This document shows positions 49,100 to 58,019 of a stretch of DNA of 64,000 nt, one piece after another. The notes below the pieces were generated by a model. The model ran no database searches and was not told where the DNA came from. It saw nothing but the letters and a program-made list of their open reading frames with translations. Source of the DNA: Fervidobacterium pennivorans DSM 9078 (lineage in GTDB: Bacteria > Thermotogota > Thermotogae > Thermotogales > Fervidobacteriaceae); the NCBI RefSeq assembly GCF_000235405.2, contig NC_017095.1:1513501-1577500 (forward strand), in the 5' to 3' direction. Each line of letters begins with the position of its first letter. The first letter of the stretch is position 1. The position numbers were made by a program, and so were the translations under genes.

Positions 49100-49690
49100 T
49101 TATTTTATATACCTTCTCCAATTTTTCATTTGCAAATGTGGATGGTCAGGAAAATCTTTCCAGCTTCCTCCCCACTCTATTCCCAAACTTTCAGCTATCT
49201 TTCCGCATTTGTGCCATAGTGTATAATTGTTCCATACTGCCTTTCCATCAATCAGTGGTACAAAATCAACTGCCAATCCATGGCAATGTGGTGAATCTTT
49301 GAGCATTGTCACTACTTTGTTTTCCTTCTCGCTTATCGGTGGCATCCCCGCTTTCTTTCGTGCATTGTTGACAACTTCAAGTGGTGCTCTTCCTTGAAGA
49401 TACAGTGCATATTGCTCTTCTTTCCTTCTGTATGTGTTGTAAATCAACACTTCTATGCCTGCAGTTTTGCAACTTTCGATAAATCTTTCCACAAGAATTC
49501 TAAATTCAGGCCTGAGCTTTTGCAAACTTCTTTCCACATCATCACCCAAAAAGATGTATCTACTTTGTATAAGTACAAGTCCAAACATGTTCAAGGCAAA
49601 AGTATACACAACCAACGAGCTTTTCGCATTGTTCAAAGTGCCAGCAGTCCCTACATTTGTGTTGGTGAAGGATGATAACGCAATACACAC
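49100..49690 (-). CDS. M15-like D-Ala-D-Ala / L-Ala-D-Glu peptidase (start uncertain)
   Basis: The C-terminal domain of about 150 residues is clear: FIESCKTAGIEVLIYNTYRR, PHCHGLAVDFVPLIDGKAVW (zinc ligands H and D), and IEWGGSWKDFPDHPHLQMKN (H). This is the VanY/CwlK-type peptidase that cuts peptidoglycan stem peptides. A hydrophobic stretch (SSLVVYTFALNMFGLVLIQ) before it may be a signal or anchor. Start GTG 49690 has AGGAG 13 bases upstream; TTG 49636 and ATG 49591 are alternatives. The frame extends upstream across a terminator, so longer forms are excluded. Paralogue of the gene at 53926. Confidence 0.75.
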   Translation of the reverse strand: MCIALSSFTNTNVGTAGTLNNAKSSLVVYTFALNMFGLVLIQSRYIFLGDDVERSLQKLRPEFRILVERFIESCKTAGIEVLIYNTYRRKEEQYALYLQGRAPLEVVNNARKKAGMPPISEKENKVVTMLKDSPHCHGLAVDFVPLIDGKAVWNNYTLWHKCGKIAESLGIEWGGSWKDFPDHPHLQMKNWRRYIK

Positions 49691-49757
49691 ATAAATTGGA
49701 TATTCTCCTACGAGTGAGTATTTAAAGCTGTTGAAAACAAAAGAGTGAATTATAATC

Positions 49758-49785
49758 AAAAAAAGAGGGGACAAGACGTCCCCTC
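49758..49785 (-). terminator. Terminator of the ATPase gene, copy A of a repeated hairpin
   Basis: GAGGGGAC (49765-49772) and GTCCCCTC (49778-49785), loop of 5; minus strand continues TTTTTTTG. The same 19-base core recurs at 51794. Confidence 0.85.
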
Positions 49786-49900
49786 GTTGTTTATTTGTTC
49801 GACTGTATTTAATAGAAGAATTGCATAAATCCCGAGAAGAAACGGAATTCATTAAGTATACATCTTCTACTGACGTTGTAGAAAACTTTCCTCACATTTT

Positions 49901-51283
49901 CTACCCTACTAACCCAAGGAACAACCATGTTGGAATCCCGACAATTCCTTCATCTTTGAATGACGTTTCTTGTGTAACAATAATACCTTTACCAAAGCCT
50001 TTCTTCATTCCTAGATAATCTGATTTTCTGATGTTTTTCTGGTATTTGACTTCTATCGGTATCAGCTTTCCATTACGTTCGCAAACGAAGTCAATTTCAT
50101 TTCCCCTTTCAGAATACCAGAAGTAAGGTCCTTCGTAAAGATTCAAGCCTGATGAAACGTCCTCATCTTTTAGAATATGCCGCAAAACCATAAGCTCAAT
50201 AAGTTGCGGTAGGTCTATCATTTTTCCACTAAGTTCAGTAATGACATCGGCAATAATTTTATCGATTGGATAAACCTTCTTTTGCTTCTTCGGTTTTATA
50301 CACTTCATCGATGGGTCTATGAAAAAGACGTTGAATGTTATAAAGCTATATGCAAGGTATTCCATGTACTTTTGTATTGTATCTACACTTCCAATACTGC
50401 CTGAGAAAATATCAACAAGAGAATTCCACGAAAACCTTTGACCAACTATCTCTGGGAGTTTCCTCAGAATTTCCAGCACCTTTGTTCTTGAACCTATGTA
50501 CTTTTCAGCATCACCAAGCACAAAATCTTTGTAAATATTTATGCTTTCTTGCACAGTTCCTTTTTCCAAAAACTCAGCTATAACCCTCGGAAATCCGCCT
50601 GTGCTGAGGTATCTGAGGAAATGTTCCTTGATAAACCCGTATTCCAATCTAAGTTTGTTGATTTCATTTTCAGTTAATGTAAGGATATCTGCCAAAGAAA
50701 GTCTTTCAACACTTATGCCTAGGTTTTTTAAATACTCGTTGAATGTTATTGGCATGTAAGCAAGATCCTTCCCTTGCCCCTTTCTGCCTGGCAGTTTCTC
50801 ACTCGAATGCTTAAGGTCGTAAGCGGACGAACCTGTAAGAATTACTACACTTCTATCAAACATCCCCAAATCAGCCAGATATTTAATCGTTAGTTGCCAG
50901 TCTTTTATAACGGTAACTTCATCTATAAGTATGTAATTCAGCTGATTCGACTTTGAACCATACGTCTGAAGATAGATTGTAAGTATCTCGCTGAATTCAA
51001 ATCGGTCTTTTATCCCATCACAGGTCAAAAAAATTAAATTTGTGGGTTTTACACCACTTTCCAAAAGATTCCTAATATACATCTTCAAAAATGTTGTCTT
51101 TCCTATTTGTCTCGGTCCACGAATTGTGTAAATTCCAGGTTTATCCTTTTGAATGCTTGAGAAAAGTTTTTCAGGGTAGTGCTTGAAAACACTGTGTTGA
51201 AAAGCCACGATATACCTATCTGTATAGATTGATTTAGGATCTCTCCACCACGGATTCAAGACATATAGTTCTTCAATCCTCAT
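49901..51283 (-). CDS. AAA+ ATPase of the AAA_14 / DUF4143 type
   Basis: About 460 residues. Walker A IRGPRQIGKTTFLKMYI near residue 55, Walker B YILIDEVTVIKDW near 125, sensor 1 VILTGSSAYDLKH. The C-terminal half has the DUF4143 features RVIAEFLEKG, EIVGQRFSWNSLVDIF and a nuclease-like region GNEIDFVCERNGKLIPIEVK that resembles a PD-(D/E)xK core (ID...EVKYQ). Such proteins are common in thermophiles; their role is unknown, possibly defence or toxin-related. Start: ATG 51283 with GAGGTGGG upstream. Preceded by tandem palindromes. Confidence 0.85.
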   Translation of the reverse strand: MRIEELYVLNPWWRDPKSIYTDRYIVAFQHSVFKHYPEKLFSSIQKDKPGIYTIRGPRQIGKTTFLKMYIRNLLESGVKPTNLIFLTCDGIKDRFEFSEILTIYLQTYGSKSNQLNYILIDEVTVIKDWQLTIKYLADLGMFDRSVVILTGSSAYDLKHSSEKLPGRKGQGKDLAYMPITFNEYLKNLGISVERLSLADILTLTENEINKLRLEYGFIKEHFLRYLSTGGFPRVIAEFLEKGTVQESINIYKDFVLGDAEKYIGSRTKVLEILRKLPEIVGQRFSWNSLVDIFSGSIGSVDTIQKYMEYLAYSFITFNVFFIDPSMKCIKPKKQKKVYPIDKIIADVITELSGKMIDLPQLIELMVLRHILKDEDVSSGLNLYEGPYFWYSERGNEIDFVCERNGKLIPIEVKYQKNIRKSDYLGMKKGFGKGIIVTQETSFKDEGIVGIPTWLFLGLVG

Positions 51284-51321: not shown

Positions 51322-51330
51322 ATTATATCA
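51322..51330 (-). promoter_or_regulatory. Extended -10 promoter element for the ATPase gene
   Basis: Minus strand TGATATAAT, 39 bases before the ATG at 51283. The first palindrome overlaps the -35 position. Confidence 0.55.
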
Positions 51331-51343
51331 CACACTGTCTGAT

Positions 51344-51397
51344 TTTATCGACTACACTAGATAAAAACGCACGAATTTATCGAATATATTCGATAAA
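51344..51397. promoter_or_regulatory. Tandem 22-bp operator-like palindromes TTTATC-N10-GATAAA
   Basis: Site 1 (51344-51365) is TTTATC, ten bases, GATAAA. Site 2 (51376-51397) is the perfect palindrome TTTATCGAATA / TATTCGATAAA. They start 32 bases apart, three helical turns, on the promoter of the ATPase gene. A further inverted repeat GTTTTTG...CAAAAAC lies at 51406-51428. This looks like cooperative binding of a dimeric repressor. The remainder of the 310-base gap (to 51594) has no ORF I can support. Confidence 0.6.
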
Positions 51398-51594
51398 ATG
51401 CGACAGTTTTTGCAAAGTAGACAAAAACCTGTGTAAGTGGTGCGATAAAAATCATCCGGTAGATGTTTTTTGCCAAGAAAGGTTAAAAGCATAGGAAGGG
51501 GGATGAAAAACTAGTGAAGATACAGAAAGGGAAGGAGGATGAAGAATACAAAGAAAAGATAAAAGATTAAAAGCGATAAAAAACATGGCTCTGG

Positions 51595-51770
51595 TCATTC
51601 AAAGTTATCATTCTGCTGTGGAATTAAGTTCAGCGTAACATACAAACTACCGCCAAGTTTTGCTGCAATCTCTGCAAGCTTCTTGACTGAAATATTAGCA
51701 TCACCTGATTCAAGTTTAGATACCATTGCCTGTGTTACTCCTAACATTTCTGCACCTTTTTCAAAAAAAA
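51595..51770 (-). pseudogene. 5'-truncated XRE-type antitoxin/regulator
   Basis: Minus strand reads FEKGAEMLGVTQAMVSKLES then GDANISVKKLAEIAAKLGGS and LYVTLNL: the C-terminal half of a HigA/XRE helix-turn-helix (recognition helix TQAMVSKLE). The N-terminal helices are missing, and the frame upstream runs into the terminator of the S9 peptidase gene. An ATG at 51747 with AAGGTG upstream could still give a 50-residue product. No toxin gene is adjacent. Confidence 0.65.
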
Positions 51771-51787
51771 TGAAATGTGCGTGATAC

Positions 51788-51812
51788 AAATAAGGGGACA
51801 AGACGTCCCCTC
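51788..51812 (-). terminator. Terminator of the S9 peptidase gene, copy B of a repeated hairpin
   Basis: GGGGAC (51794-51799) and GTCCCC (51805-51810) with the same loop and flank as copy A at 49767; minus strand continues TTATTTG. Confidence 0.75.
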
Positions 51813-51817
51813 TTTGC

Positions 51818-53824
51818 TTATTCATTGGCTTTAAGGTATTTATCAAACCACTCAATGATTTCTTTGAGTCTTCTTAATCTGTGCAGTGGTTTTCCTGTTC
51901 TGCTTAAATCGTGGTTCTCACCTTTGAATATCACCAACTTTGACTCTACCCCGTGGTATTTCAGCGATGTGAACATTTGGATAGCCTCTACAAGCCAGCA
52001 TCTGTAGTCTTCATCTGAATGAATAAAAAGTGTAGGTGTTTTCACTTTGTCTGCATATTTCATCGGTGAATGCCACCAGAGTTTTTCGTAGTTACTCCAT
52101 GGAGTTGCAAAATGCTGGTCTTCGACAAAGAAATACCCAATATCTGTTGTTCCAAACTTGCTTATCCAATTCGCAATACTCCTTTGCGATACTGCCGCTT
52201 TGAATCTATCTGTGTGTCCAATTATCCAGTTGGTCATGAAACCTCCATACGAACCGCCTGTAACACCTATTTTGTTTTCGTCTATGAATTCATATCTTTT
52301 AACAGCCTCATCTACAAATTGCATTATATCCTCATAGTCAATCGTTCCATATTTGCCACGTATATCAGCAAACTCATTTCCTCTTCCATCACTACCCCGT
52401 GGGTTACAGTAAATGACCACATATCCTTCACTTGCCAATAGTTGCATTTCGTGAACAAAAACCTCCCCGTAAGCTGTCTTCGGTCCACCGTGGATTTCCA
52501 AAATCGCGGGGAATTTCTTGCCTGGTTCGAAGTTGAAAGGTTTCATAACCCAGCCCTCAAGTGTTGTGCCATCCTTCGTGTTGAATGTGAAGCGTTCTGG
52601 TCGCGAGATATACCTTTCTTTTTGTACCCATTCGTTGAATTGACTGAGTTGCTTTTCTTGCCTTTCAATAAGTTCGTAAAGTTCTTGGAGTTTCATGTTC
52701 CTTAACCCAACAAAGAATATCTTTCCATTAGACACGTCAAACCCATCAACCGAACCTGTTTCAAATGTGAGTTGTTCGACGTTCCCGGAAATGTCAAGCC
52801 TAAACAACTGAGCATCATGCCATTGGGTGCTCACAAAATACAAGTATTTTCCATCCACCTTAACAATCCTGTTTCCGCCATATCTGCAGTCGCTATTAAC
52901 ACTGTTGTCTATATCTAAGTCAAAATCTGGGGTTATCAATTCCACACGTTGGGTGGAAATATCGAGAACATAAAACTTCGGATTTTCGTTTATACCATAT
53001 CTTTTCATATCGCTCCCGGCGAATATCACTTTTCCATCGATAAACTCAGCAAGCATATACATGAAGTGGTCGTGGTGAGTAAGTTTAACTGTTTCGTTCT
53101 TTTCTACATCGTAGAGAAATAAATCATTTGGCATTTTCATAACGTCTTTGAAGAAATTTGCAATGTATAGGACTGTTTTTCCATCTGGACTGTCGGAAAT
53201 ATATTCAACGTTGGAAAATTCATCTGTGATAGGTATGATGTCTTGAGTTTGAACATTGTATCTGAAAAGCCTTACCCTCTTTTTGTTAGTAAATCCTGCC
53301 CCGTTTGCCCAGAACGGGATTTCATCAAGAACTTCATAGTCTTTTTCATCTTTCAATGCTTTGAGCACTTTCTCTTTTTCTTCAGCACTCAGCTTCCAAA
53401 ACTCTCCCAATTTGTGGTCATATACAGCAGTGAATAAAAACACACTATCGGCTATCTTCTTAATCCGTTCAACAAAAAAAGGCAGCTCAAAAACCCGTTT
53501 TGCTTCCCCACCTGAGGTGTCTATTTCATAAAACGGAGTCAGTGGTTCGCCATCTTCCTTTCGCTTTCTATCCTTTTCATCTCTCCATGAAACAAAGAGC
53601 AACCTTGAATCATCCAACCAGATTGGAGAGCTGTCCCGATTTGATGAAGTAAGTTGTGATAAAGACCCTGTGGTGGTGTCATAGAGCCAAATGTTAGAAT
53701 TGTAACTATTGTCGTCTTTGTTCATTTCATGGACAACGAAAGCCAGTTTTCCACCGTTTGGAGAAACCACCAAGCTTGAGAGAAATTTAAATTTGAGCAA
53801 ATCTTCCAGCATAATTTTTCCCAC
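51818..53824 (-). CDS. S9-family prolyl oligopeptidase / acylaminoacyl peptidase
   Basis: About 668 residues. N-terminal seven-bladed propeller with TolB-like WD repeats (LAFVVHEMNKDD, SPDGKTVLYIANFF), then the alpha/beta hydrolase domain with GVTGGSYGGFMTNWIIG (catalytic Ser), HSDEDYRCWLVEA (Asp) and KGENHDLSRTG (His). It cleaves short or N-acylated peptides in the cytoplasm; no signal peptide. Start: GTG 53824 with GGAGGTGG upstream; ATG 53839 overlaps that site. The end of the gene carries copy B of the repeated terminator. Confidence 0.92.
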   Translation of the reverse strand: MGKIMLEDLLKFKFLSSLVVSPNGGKLAFVVHEMNKDDNSYNSNIWLYDTTTGSLSQLTSSNRDSSPIWLDDSRLLFVSWRDEKDRKRKEDGEPLTPFYEIDTSGGEAKRVFELPFFVERIKKIADSVFLFTAVYDHKLGEFWKLSAEEKEKVLKALKDEKDYEVLDEIPFWANGAGFTNKKRVRLFRYNVQTQDIIPITDEFSNVEYISDSPDGKTVLYIANFFKDVMKMPNDLFLYDVEKNETVKLTHHDHFMYMLAEFIDGKVIFAGSDMKRYGINENPKFYVLDISTQRVELITPDFDLDIDNSVNSDCRYGGNRIVKVDGKYLYFVSTQWHDAQLFRLDISGNVEQLTFETGSVDGFDVSNGKIFFVGLRNMKLQELYELIERQEKQLSQFNEWVQKERYISRPERFTFNTKDGTTLEGWVMKPFNFEPGKKFPAILEIHGGPKTAYGEVFVHEMQLLASEGYVVIYCNPRGSDGRGNEFADIRGKYGTIDYEDIMQFVDEAVKRYEFIDENKIGVTGGSYGGFMTNWIIGHTDRFKAAVSQRSIANWISKFGTTDIGYFFVEDQHFATPWSNYEKLWWHSPMKYADKVKTPTLFIHSDEDYRCWLVEAIQMFTSLKYHGVESKLVIFKGENHDLSRTGKPLHRLRRLKEIIEWFDKYLKANE

Positions 53825-53886
53825 AATTACCACCTCCATTTAGTTCGTAGTACTTACTATTATTCTACCATATATTCATTAAAATC

Positions 53887-53925: not shown

Positions 53926-54498
53926 TTACTCAATTATCAATCTCTCTAAATGATTAAATGTTGCTACTTTTCTCCAGTTTTTCATCTGAATATGTGGTTT
54001 GTCTACAAGTCCTTTCCACATTCCACCCCATTCCATACCCAGATTGAGCGCAATATATCCACACCTTAGCCAAAGTTCATCGTTATACCACTGAGGTTTA
54101 CCATCAACAACAGGCACAAAATCTGCCGCAAGGCCATAGTTATGTGCCGACACTCTCAGTTTGGTAACCACGTATCTATTCTTTCTCTCATCGATAGGCT
54201 CAAGCTTTGCTTTTTGCCTTAGCAAATTCACAACTTCCAACGGCTCACGACCTTGGGCATACAAAGCATTTTGAACTGCTCTTGACCTGTAAGTATTGTA
54301 AATCCAAACACTGATGCCTTCTTTTGAACATTCCATTACAAACTTCTCAACATACCTTCTGAACTGGTAATTCAAATTGCTTAATCCTATTTCCAACCTT
54401 ATTTCCCATCGATATGACTCCAATGATACTGGCAACAGAAGAAAAAAGAAAAGGATAACGACAAAAACAATCTTTAAGACTCCGTTTGGTACTCTCAT
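53926..54498 (-). CDS. M15-like peptidase with signal peptide
   Basis: 190 residues. Signal peptide or anchor KIVFVVILFFFLLLPVSLES, then a catalytic domain close to that at 49100: SAHNYGLAADFVPVVDGKPQW (H and D ligands), MEWGGMWKGLVDKPHIQMKN (H). GISVWIYNTYRSRAVQNALY matches the paralogue's substrate-groove region. The His in PHCHG is replaced (RVSAHNYG), as in many members. Likely an extracytoplasmic peptidoglycan peptidase. Start ATG 54498 has GAGGGA upstream. Confidence 0.85.
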   Translation of the reverse strand: MRVPNGVLKIVFVVILFFFLLLPVSLESYRWEIRLEIGLSNLNYQFRRYVEKFVMECSKEGISVWIYNTYRSRAVQNALYAQGREPLEVVNLLRQKAKLEPIDERKNRYVVTKLRVSAHNYGLAADFVPVVDGKPQWYNDELWLRCGYIALNLGMEWGGMWKGLVDKPHIQMKNWRKVATFNHLERLIIE

Positions 54499-54566: not shown

Positions 54567-57500
54567 CTATATTTTCTCCAGCTCTGCTTTTAAACTTCTC
54601 AAAATTTGCTGGTAATCTTCTTCACCACTTTCAACTTTGTCCATTAGCACTTCCAATTCGCGCGTGAAATCTTCGCTGACAAATTTAAATTTCTCTCTAT
54701 CAGAATTGAAGAAGTTGTATACCTTCTCACCAAGAGCTGTGGGTAGTAAGTATCCGTTTCTCTCTATCACATACCCCCTTTCAAGCAATCTACTCACTAT
54801 TGTCGCATACGTAGATGGTCTCCCAAGTCCGCGCTTCTTCATTTCTTCAACAAGTGAGCCTTGCGTGAACGGATAGACCTTCGGAATAGCACGTATGAAT
54901 TTGTTAGCTGATACTTCTATTGTCCCTTCTGGAATTCTTGCGAGCTTAACTGGAAAGACTTTGTTAAAGCCTTCTTCAATTATCTCTTCGTACACTTCCA
55001 TTTCCTGGACTTTATCAACAACTTCAAATTTCACATCGTATCCTTTGAGCACAATATTTTTCATCTGAGAAGCTATGAAGCGTTTGAATATCAAATCATA
55101 TATCGCAATATGGTCTTTCGTAAATCCCTCAAGCTCACCCGAGTAAATCATCGCTTTGATATCCTCTATATCCAAAGCCCTGGTTGGTCGAATACATTCG
55201 TGTGCTCCGCCTTCACCCCACGTTCGCGGTTTGAAGAACCCTTCGCCAAACGTTTCGGAAATGTATTCCTTTGCCACGTTCATTCCAAAATCAGAAACCC
55301 TTGTTGAATCCGTTCTGTGGTATGTAATAAATCCTCGCTCGAACAAATCTTGGAGCACTTCCATTGTTCTGGAAACCGAGAGCTTGTATTTCTCAGATGC
55401 ATCCTTCAATATCACATCCGTCGTGTAAGGTGGTAAAGGTGATTTCTCTATTCTTTTTTCCTCGCCTTTTGTTACCTTGACCACCTTTATCTCATTGAAA
55501 AACTTTTCTGCTTCGTGTTTTTCTTCAAATTCAAACCTTAAATCCACCCCATCTTTAGAGATAGTCACAACATATTTCTTTTGCTTGCTTTCCTTTGCGC
55601 GTTCTATTACCCATCCAAGAACAGGTGTCTGAACCCTTCCAGCGGACAGGTTACTCCGTCCGAAAAGTCTTTGGATGAGCTGTGAAAGTTCAAATCCTAC
55701 CCATCTATCCGAAATTCTTCTCACAACTTGCGCTTTGACAAGATTTTCATCTACTTCTCTGTACTCACGTAACGCGTTTAAAATCGCTCGCTTTGTGACC
55801 TCGTGAAATTCCATTCGCTTGATATTTTTCGCATATACACTGCACAAGTTCTTCAAATCCCAAGAAATCTTTTCACCTTCTGTATCAGGGTCAGTTGCAA
55901 TAAGTATCTGTTCAAATTCTTTGCTCGCTTCTCTGATAGCGTTCACTATGCTTTCTTTTCCCTCGATAGTCTCATACACAGGAACATACTTTCTACTACC
56001 ATCGTTAGAACTTTCCAAAACGCCAAAATAACCTTCCTCTTTATTTAAATCAAACACATGACCAAAAGACGCAGTGATGACCACGTATTTGTCTTCTGTA
56101 ATAACCTCATACAACTCGTGACCTTCAAGACTGCGGGAGATTGGCTTTCCAAAGAAGTTTGCAATTGTTCTTGCCTTGTGAGGAGATTCAACGATTACAA
56201 GTACAGGTTTCAAGAAATCGTCTCTTCTACCTTCTTTCTTACGCACACGCTCTCTGTCGTTATCTATCTCTTTTATCAACATTCCGAAATCTATACTCTG
56301 CGCTTCTTTAAATACCACATCTGAGCTGAACCACCAGCGAAGCTTTCTAATCAAATTGTTGAAAACCTTTTTATCATCCACAAGTACATAGCTCAGTCCC
56401 TTTGTAATACCACCAACAAAGAGCCTCGAGGTACGTCCAGAAGCTTGGAGATAACCTGTCACATCAGCAACAACTAGATACCACTTTCCACCTTCTTGCC
56501 TCAGTGTAATATCATCCGCAGACTTTATTTTCTTGGTAATCTCTTCAGACAGAATAAACTTTTTTATTTCCTCTCTCAACTGCTCCACACGGTCTTTTGG
56601 AGGATTTGGAATATTTCCGAGTTTTTTTAATTCCTTCATCCATTTATCTATCGTCATGGTCCATTTTTCTAACTCTTTGTCCCTTGCTATCAGAGGTCTC
56701 AACGTCGAAATAGCCAGGAGAATGTGTTTGACATTCCCTTCTAAATCCAAACTCACAACAATCTTGGGAACGCCGTAAAATACGGCGTAGCGAATTACCT
56801 CAGGTATGTCCAACCCACGTGCCAGCGGGTTTCTATATGAGGAAATACCTATAAGAACTTGGATTTCTCTATTTTTGTACTTTTCTAAAACTTCTTCTGA
56901 AAAATTCTCATAACTTTCGCTTGTAATTCCGTGTTTACTCAGAAGTTCTTTTAATTCGTCAACCTTTTCTTTTCCATAATCGGAAGACACAAATACAAGC
57001 CCACCGTCACCGAATTGTTTTATCTTCTCCACAAGCATGTTATCCAAAATCGTTTGATTGGCCCCAACGACTTCGTACACATCCTCAACATTCCTCAGAT
57101 AGAAAACAGGACGACCAACATCGAACGAAAGAAGTTCCTTGAAGAGTCTTATTCTTTCAGACTTTGGATTGCTCGTGGCAGATGAAACAACCATCACACC
57201 TTTTGCTTTTTTCGAAATTCTTTTAACTTGCTCACGTAATGAGTTAATTTCCTCTACATTCTCTTCTGTCACATTTCTCCTCATCCTTATATACTTCATC
57301 GTCAACTCAATATCCCTTGGCTCAAATCCCAACAAATACAATGCCTTGTCTATATTCTTCGCTGTTTTCAAGAACGAATCAACATCGTCAACAAAAATAA
57401 AACTAAAATCACGAGGAATTAGGTCGACATTTTTGTAAAGGAACATAGAAGTAGTCACAAGTATTTTGAACTGACCATTCGCAAGTCTTTCTTTGTTTTT

Positions 57501-58019
57501 GTCCTTTTCCTTTTTCGATTCCTCCATTCCTATTACCAACAAATCTTCAGCTGGGACTTTATCTTTTAGCTTTTCATAGCTTTGGAGGACCAGAAGCCTG
57601 GTTGGAAGAATAATATAAGACTTTTTGTTGTGCTTTGCAAAGTATATCGCCGAAGCGAATCCCCATGAAGTCTTTCCAATTCCTGTTGGTGCCAAAAGCG
57701 CAAATGAGCGTTTCAAAAGCAGCTTTCTTGCCCAGAACTTTTGCAATTCCCAAGGTTCAAACCCCACGTATTTTCTAAATGTTCTTTCCCACTCTTCATA
57801 CTCTTCGTTCAATTTGCAAAATCCCTTAAGCCCTTTTAAATTACTAAGACGACAAAGGGCTTCCTTGCCCTCGATGTCTTCTTTCAAACAATTTTCACAA
57901 GGAAGCCCCTTAACCAACCTTATTGAAGATATATCTCCACCACAATTAGGACACAATTGCTTAAATACTGCCTCTAGTGCGGATGCTTGCTGTGCCACTA
58001 CCTCCATTGGCTCAATCAC
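54567..58019 (-). CDS. rgy: Reverse gyrase
   Basis: 1150 residues. N-terminal zinc finger LCPNCGG...PCENC (residues 23-43), helicase-like module with Walker A LAPTGIGKTSWG near 110, DDVD in place of DEAD (FIFVDDVDSFLKTAKN) and the latch, then a topoisomerase IA module: VIVESPHKARTIANFFGKP near 610, ATDPDTEGEKISWDL near 708 and the catalytic Tyr in GFITYHRTDSTRVS near 900. It introduces positive supercoils and marks a thermophile. The second zinc finger usual before the IATDPD region is missing. Start GTG 58019 overlaps the recF stop; ATG 58007 is an alternative. Confidence 0.97.
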   Translation of the reverse strand: MIEPMEVVAQQASALEAVFKQLCPNCGGDISSIRLVKGLPCENCLKEDIEGKEALCRLSNLKGLKGFCKLNEEYEEWERTFRKYVGFEPWELQKFWARKLLLKRSFALLAPTGIGKTSWGFASAIYFAKHNKKSYIILPTRLLVLQSYEKLKDKVPAEDLLVIGMEESKKEKDKNKERLANGQFKILVTTSMFLYKNVDLIPRDFSFIFVDDVDSFLKTAKNIDKALYLLGFEPRDIELTMKYIRMRRNVTEENVEEINSLREQVKRISKKAKGVMVVSSATSNPKSERIRLFKELLSFDVGRPVFYLRNVEDVYEVVGANQTILDNMLVEKIKQFGDGGLVFVSSDYGKEKVDELKELLSKHGITSESYENFSEEVLEKYKNREIQVLIGISSYRNPLARGLDIPEVIRYAVFYGVPKIVVSLDLEGNVKHILLAISTLRPLIARDKELEKWTMTIDKWMKELKKLGNIPNPPKDRVEQLREEIKKFILSEEITKKIKSADDITLRQEGGKWYLVVADVTGYLQASGRTSRLFVGGITKGLSYVLVDDKKVFNNLIRKLRWWFSSDVVFKEAQSIDFGMLIKEIDNDRERVRKKEGRRDDFLKPVLVIVESPHKARTIANFFGKPISRSLEGHELYEVITEDKYVVITASFGHVFDLNKEEGYFGVLESSNDGSRKYVPVYETIEGKESIVNAIREASKEFEQILIATDPDTEGEKISWDLKNLCSVYAKNIKRMEFHEVTKRAILNALREYREVDENLVKAQVVRRISDRWVGFELSQLIQRLFGRSNLSAGRVQTPVLGWVIERAKESKQKKYVVTISKDGVDLRFEFEEKHEAEKFFNEIKVVKVTKGEEKRIEKSPLPPYTTDVILKDASEKYKLSVSRTMEVLQDLFERGFITYHRTDSTRVSDFGMNVAKEYISETFGEGFFKPRTWGEGGAHECIRPTRALDIEDIKAMIYSGELEGFTKDHIAIYDLIFKRFIASQMKNIVLKGYDVKFEVVDKVQEMEVYEEIIEEGFNKVFPVKLARIPEGTIEVSANKFIRAIPKVYPFTQGSLVEEMKKRGLGRPSTYATIVSRLLERGYVIERNGYLLPTALGEKVYNFFNSDREKFKFVSEDFTRELEVLMDKVESGEEDYQQILRSLKAELEKI

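Follow-up and report, generated by a model that had tools for sequence, protein, structure and literature searches.

The window analyzed here is a stretch of 64,000 nucleotides of Fervidobacterium pennivorans DSM 9078 (contig NC_017095.1) and contains a gene for an ATPase that combines AAA_14 and DUF4143 domains (Table 1). The listed GTG start of this gene (51292) falls within the presumed ribosome-binding site, and the ATG at 51283 was taken as the start. A pattern search of the window for TTTATC-N10-GATAAA, which the original prediction had described as tandem sites with a 32-base periodicity, recovered both copies, at 51344-51365 and 51376-51397 (period 32; no mismatches). The second copy reads identically on both strands and thus is the perfect 22-bp palindrome that had been announced; in the first, the symmetry is imperfect inside the 6-bp arms. 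These are the only two exact matches in the 2.17-Mb genome (mirrored control pattern, 0) and both precede the ATPase gene, in line with the expectation that the motif would be tied to a promoter rather than scattered genome-wide. When two mismatches were allowed, the genome yielded 250 matches versus 274 for the mirrored control; since the loose motif occurs at chance level, it is the exact pair in tandem that carries the signal. Together, the palindromes form the two halves of a single near-symmetric element of 54 bp, in which TTTATCGAA-N4-TTCGATAAA is followed by a 10-bp linker containing CGTACG and then by the second dyad. A PWM of this element, built partly from the window's own copy, scored 69.3 at 51344-51397, with a runner-up of 2.1 in the window. 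Of 25 distinct elements, 18 have CGTACG as the core of the linker, six have CGCACG and one has AGTGTG. Neither the linker nor the extended -10 element that adjoins the 54-bp element featured in the original prediction.

Table 1 Features of the ATPase gene and of the region upstream of it (positions in the window)
Feature	Position	Strand	Basis
AAA_14 + DUF4143 ATPase, 460 aa from ATG 51283	49901..51283	-	Pfam AAA_14 2.4e-25, DUF4143 3.2e-16; PADLOC PDC-S01 4.2e-41
Putative PD-(D/E)XK-like segment (E396, D398, E411, K413)	49994..50131	-	E396, D398 invariant in alignment A1; E411, K413 invariant in A2
Putative winged helix-turn-helix, N-terminal part of DUF4143, residues ~265-325	50309..50491	-	Alignment A1; HTH matches in relatives
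Predicted extended -10 element TGATATAAT	51322..51330	-	Sequence; position relative to dyads; T. maritima promoter pattern
54-bp composite twin-dyad candidate operator, clade-A type	51344..51397		PWM score; 25 distinct copies across loci
Promoter-proximal dyad TTTATCGACTACACTAGATAAA	51344..51365		0 mismatches to TTTATC-N10-GATAAA
Conserved linker AACGCACGAA	51366..51375		Core CGTACG or CGCACG in 24/25 elements
Distal dyad TTTATCGAATATATTCGATAAA	51376..51397		Perfect 22-bp palindrome

The third inverted repeat of the original prediction, GTTTTTG-N9-CAAAAAC, is present at 51406-51428, but we rejected it as a part of the element and consider it fortuitous because any 85 bp of the window would be expected to hold about 0.24 repeats of this kind and because this one is not conserved among the relatives examined. 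A LexA/SOS-like box was rejected by eye owing to its unsuitable spacing, and an Rfam search gave no match to an RNA element. The element overlaps the predicted promoter of the ATPase gene, with transcription predicted to start at about 51315. Promoters of T. maritima are mostly TGn-extended, with the start site 7 bp from the -10 element, and the extended -10 type is the most informative one for 63% of the units in this organism (PMC3636130). Most promoters of the AAA_14 genes that we examined also look like extended -10 promoters.

Several other features surround the ATPase gene. At 51595-51855 lies a remnant of an XRE/HipB-like antitoxin that is truncated at its N-terminus (positions 16-52 of the 55 in HTH_3) and apparently cut at about 51780. 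The window holds exactly two copies of a hairpin, GGGGACAAGACGTCCCC, where 0.01 would be expected; located at 49767-49783 and 51794-51810, they bracket the ATPase gene together with the XRE fragment. A mobile-element end was considered and rejected, there being no clear empty site in the congeners that carry the S9 neighbor, and no close homologs of the ATPase were found in phage, plasmid or viral collections. The S9 peptidase gene adjoins the clade-A ATPase in three genomes (L054 3612-5504, L055 1455-3374 and window 51818-53839), the window's peptidase being only about 32% identical to the others. Two similar ORFs, at 49100-49852 and 53926-54498, share a LYxQGRxPLEVVN stretch, flank the ATPase/S9 region and are possibly paralogous peptidases. 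Farther on, a 1150-aa ORF (54567-58019) looks by eye like a reverse gyrase, with helicase and topoisomerase parts. Elsewhere in the genome (G000), an identical 22-mer, TTCATCAGCATGAACTGAGAAA, recurs many times (e.g., C1:18695, 30124, 143076), which suggests a multi-copy repeat or insertion sequence.

Across genomes, the element and the ATPase gene are closely linked. An exact-motif search of 60 relatives showed that other Thermotogales, too, carry these pairs with the 32-bp spacing, and the 54-bp pattern with at most three mismatches was found in 22 of the 103 genomes of the class (mirrored control, one match), three of which (G005, G089, G100) matched without the linker and look like chance hits. 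Homologs of the clade-A ATPase (identity of 56% or more across most of the length) are encoded in 12 of the 103 genomes, all Thermotogota. The element is located at the promoter of 12/12 full-length or near-full clade-A genes, one of which (G032) is broken, mostly 35-65 bp upstream of the listed start. An exact scan of genome contigs showed that two Atribacteria MAGs also carry it before the same ATPase. The 54-bp element is missing from relatives that share about 45% identity. Neither the ATPase nor the element was found in eight other genomes of the window's genus; the element thus travels with the gene, and the ATPase gene, judging from this distribution, was probably gained by transfer.

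In several Thermotoga-type genomes, the element is flanked by the ATPase on one side and, on the other, by a second, divergent ATPase, which we denote type B. A near-consensus element persists in two genomes in which only type B remains, with no DUF4143 match (G027, G029), and in one in which the ATPase gene is broken (G037); in another (G038), the element stands alone before a homoserine dehydrogenase gene. A solo element precedes thrA-like genes in a Pseudothermotoga MAG (L145 842-895), and in an Atribacteria MAG (L123 1787-1840) the ATPase and its element adjoin an asd/lysC/thrB/thrC-like cluster. AAA ATPases of type B, that of the window genome among them (L239, G000:C1:168500-172500; L150-L174), have their own upstream pattern, in which TGTCGA recurs every 9-11 bp ahead of the -10 element, with the spacing 9,11,9,9 kept in several genera; given also a weak C-terminal HTH match, type B is possibly a second self-regulated ATPase family. 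Yet another arrangement is found in L084, where an ATPase_2-like gene (MKFIDRIDEMNFLEKEY; ORF starting near 2983) follows tandem TAGTTTAAACTA palindromes at steps of about 15 bp.

No conserved regulator gene was found beside the element in the relatives' loci examined. Searches of the window genome with the exact motif and the 54-bp pattern detected no second target of the element; what was expected to lead to a regulon thus led to a site private to one gene.

The promoters of other AAA_14 clades, first read by inspection, carry different palindromes at the same spacing. We scanned 56 non-redundant AAA_14 genes with no sequence assumed, anchoring the region on the Walker A codons and scoring the best dyad pair that shares one 7-bp half-site at periods of 20-60, with a threshold of 32 points. 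The best score averaged 31.2 for period 32 and 27.3 for period 33, whereas the other periods gave about 24-26 and dinucleotide shuffles about 24.2; the threshold was reached by 27 genes at period 32, nine at 33 and three at 34 (shuffles, 0.0-0.3), these being counts that include related genes and not independent events. A control set of 196 unrelated ORFs, taken from the same loci, showed no peak (three at 32 and two at 33, at least one of which is the element itself), and none of 24 canonical DUF4143 genes, which came from other phyla, reached the threshold at 32 or 33. A weaker peak was seen in other phyla, where, of 40 relatives selected by profile, nine reached 32 points at period 33 and two at period 32 (shuffles, 0.0), so that beyond Thermotogota the pair is present in a minority of the relatives tested.

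About ten classes of half-site can be distinguished, in step with the protein clades (TTTATCGAA, TTGGTCA, TTGTGCA, TTGACCT, CGTTTCA, TTTCCTT, TTATGGA, GAACAGT, GGAAGTC). The second DUF4143 paralog of the window genome has a different operator-like sequence, GGAAnTCnACTTCC, with a period of 33 and a half-site of the GGAAGTC class. Operator similarity correlates with protein identity after relatives are collapsed (Mantel r 0.34, p 0.0015, n=17), and the same test on smaller sets gave r 0.35, p 0.002 (n=15) and r 0.35, p 0.011 (n=11). The putative recognition sequences have diverged between clades, with the spacing kept fixed. When protein segments were compared with the operators, residues 279-306 and 329-347 ranked highest in the full set, which pointed to the HTH and was suggestive of recognition-helix coevolution, but significance was lost once relatives were collapsed (p 0.50 and 0.12), and we do not retain this proposal.

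The position of the pair with respect to transcription is also constrained. The dyad centers lie, depending on the clade, at about (-70,-38), (-58,-26), (-49,-17) or (-30,+3) from the predicted start, a few of the -10 assignments being doubtful, and the positions are set relative to the -10 element in steps of approximately one helical turn. Because the proximal dyad, with its center mostly between -40 and +4, usually falls on the core promoter, repression is favored.

In alignments, the ATPase displays a Walker A motif (GPRQIGKT) and an E-D...E-K motif in the putative nuclease-like segment. The N-terminal part of its DUF4143 region resembles a helix-turn-helix of the winged type: 45-residue segments of relatives match HTH_11 (6.5e-5), HTH_10, MarR (0.001) and IclR (0.0014), and the corresponding segment of the window ATPase itself matches DUF4143 only, weakly (E=0.1). 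The AlphaFold model of the ATPase is poor (pLDDT 46), so the putative winged helix rests on sequence.

Taken together, these observations make it probable that the ATPase represses its own gene through a private twin operator. With no linked regulator, no second target and a clade-specific sequence at a kept spacing, the ATPase is the most economical candidate for the binder, and the privacy of the site to a single gene also points to the linked ATPase as its own regulator. We infer the ATPase as the binding protein, the winged helix as the reader of the site, repression as the outcome and cooperativity between the dyads. Under this model, the 54-bp element would be the private operator of the ATPase gene, on which the protein would bind as two dimers, one per dyad, occupying the same face of the DNA at a distance of 32 bp (about three turns), with the contact probably made via the winged-helix part of the DUF4143 region; with the proximal dyad covering the promoter, the protein would shut down its own gene, and gene and operator would be inherited and transferred as one unit. 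The cooperative repression of the ATPase gene in the original prediction is thereby upheld in so far as the element is operator-like and repression is the best-fitting sign, given the proximal dyad over the core promoter family-wide; cooperativity is read from the fixed spacing only.

An unlinked transcription factor that represses the ATPase gene via the twin operator is, in our estimate, an unlikely alternative. Palindromes at a fixed spacing are typical of ordinary dimeric regulators, and the few genomes that keep the element without an intact clade-A gene fit such a factor as well. However, about ten unrelated half-site classes would call for about ten single-target factors, each of which would have to move with the gene despite being unlinked to it. 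It is also quite improbable that the dyads are activator sites at which the bound protein recruits RNA polymerase: the clade-A centers near -39 and -71, along with a poor -35, present a geometry that activators use too, but in other clades the center of the proximal dyad (-26, -17 or about +3) lies on the -10 element or beyond it, where activation is unlikely, and extended -10 promoters need no -35. We assign a similarly low likelihood to the dyads being recognition, self-marking or origin-like sites of an ATPase-nuclease rather than operators. Such a role is brought to mind by the dyad boxes bound by Orc1/Cdc6-type AAA+ proteins with winged helices, by the nuclease-like segment and by the solo element in L145, whereas positions keyed to the -10 element in helical-turn steps fit transcription control. 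Finally, the proposal that the XRE protein was the original regulator, of which the fragment from 51595 to about 51780 would be the remains, has next to nothing to recommend it beyond its location about 200 bp from the element in the window genome, as the fragment is an N-terminally truncated remnant and the other loci read have no XRE gene next to the element.

Autorepression by the ATPase through its twin operator, the reading that we prefer, can be compared with several known systems. The ATPase matches seven PDC-S01 models of PADLOC, the best being PDLC04787 (residues 45-456, E=4.2e-41; the library gives no curated cut-off), and its domain plan, in which a putative PD-(D/E)XK-like segment is joined to the AAA ATPase part, appears to be the same. 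PDC-S01 is described as a single-gene defense candidate in which an AAA ATPase is fused to PD-(D/E)XK, and is reported to be the fourth commonest defense candidate across prokaryotes, experimental validation being pending for most PDCs (PMC12988326). The passages that name PDC-S01 in two papers, which concern abundance and evolution, make no mention of an operator (PMC12988326, PMC13356809). In the literature searched, DUF4143 is mentioned only in an expression table. Unlike the clade-A ATPase, the 24 canonical DUF4143 genes sampled lack the 32-33 bp pair. From a private operator one can predict a binding partner and a resting state of repression, and it provides a route to the trigger of PDC-S01; private operators also offer a simple test of orthogonality between clades. 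As a tentative extension, lineages of PDC-S01 might be their own repressors, each clade with a private twin operator at 32-33 bp, such that co-resident copies would not cross-regulate; a trigger (e.g., invading DNA) that engages the ATPase would then free the promoter and amplify the response.

The operators of autoregulated toxin-antitoxin systems and phage repressors likewise place a pair of dyads over their own promoter and have lineage-specific sequences. In contrast to these, the system in the window has no second small regulator gene, and its putative repressor is the ATPase-nuclease; an XRE/HigA-type toxin-antitoxin operator in particular was rejected as there is no intact XRE gene beside the operator in relatives. 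A published parallel in plan comes from archaea, where Orc1-2, an AAA+/winged-helix protein, binds its own promoter (PMC9738581). In both cases an AAA+ protein with a winged helix (putative in the window ATPase) would bind short boxes, as Orc1-Cdc6 does and as Orc1-2 does in its own promoter too. The window ATPase gave no match to Orc1/Cdc6 models in NCBIfam or Pfam, and it differs from Orc1-2 and Orc1-Cdc6 in belonging to the AAA_14 family with a nuclease-like segment and in the tandem palindromes of clade-private sequence at a fixed period of 32-33 bp. If the proposed autorepression is correct, an AAA+ ATPase with a nuclease-like domain would act as a transcription repressor, on a plan comparable to that of archaeal Orc1-2.
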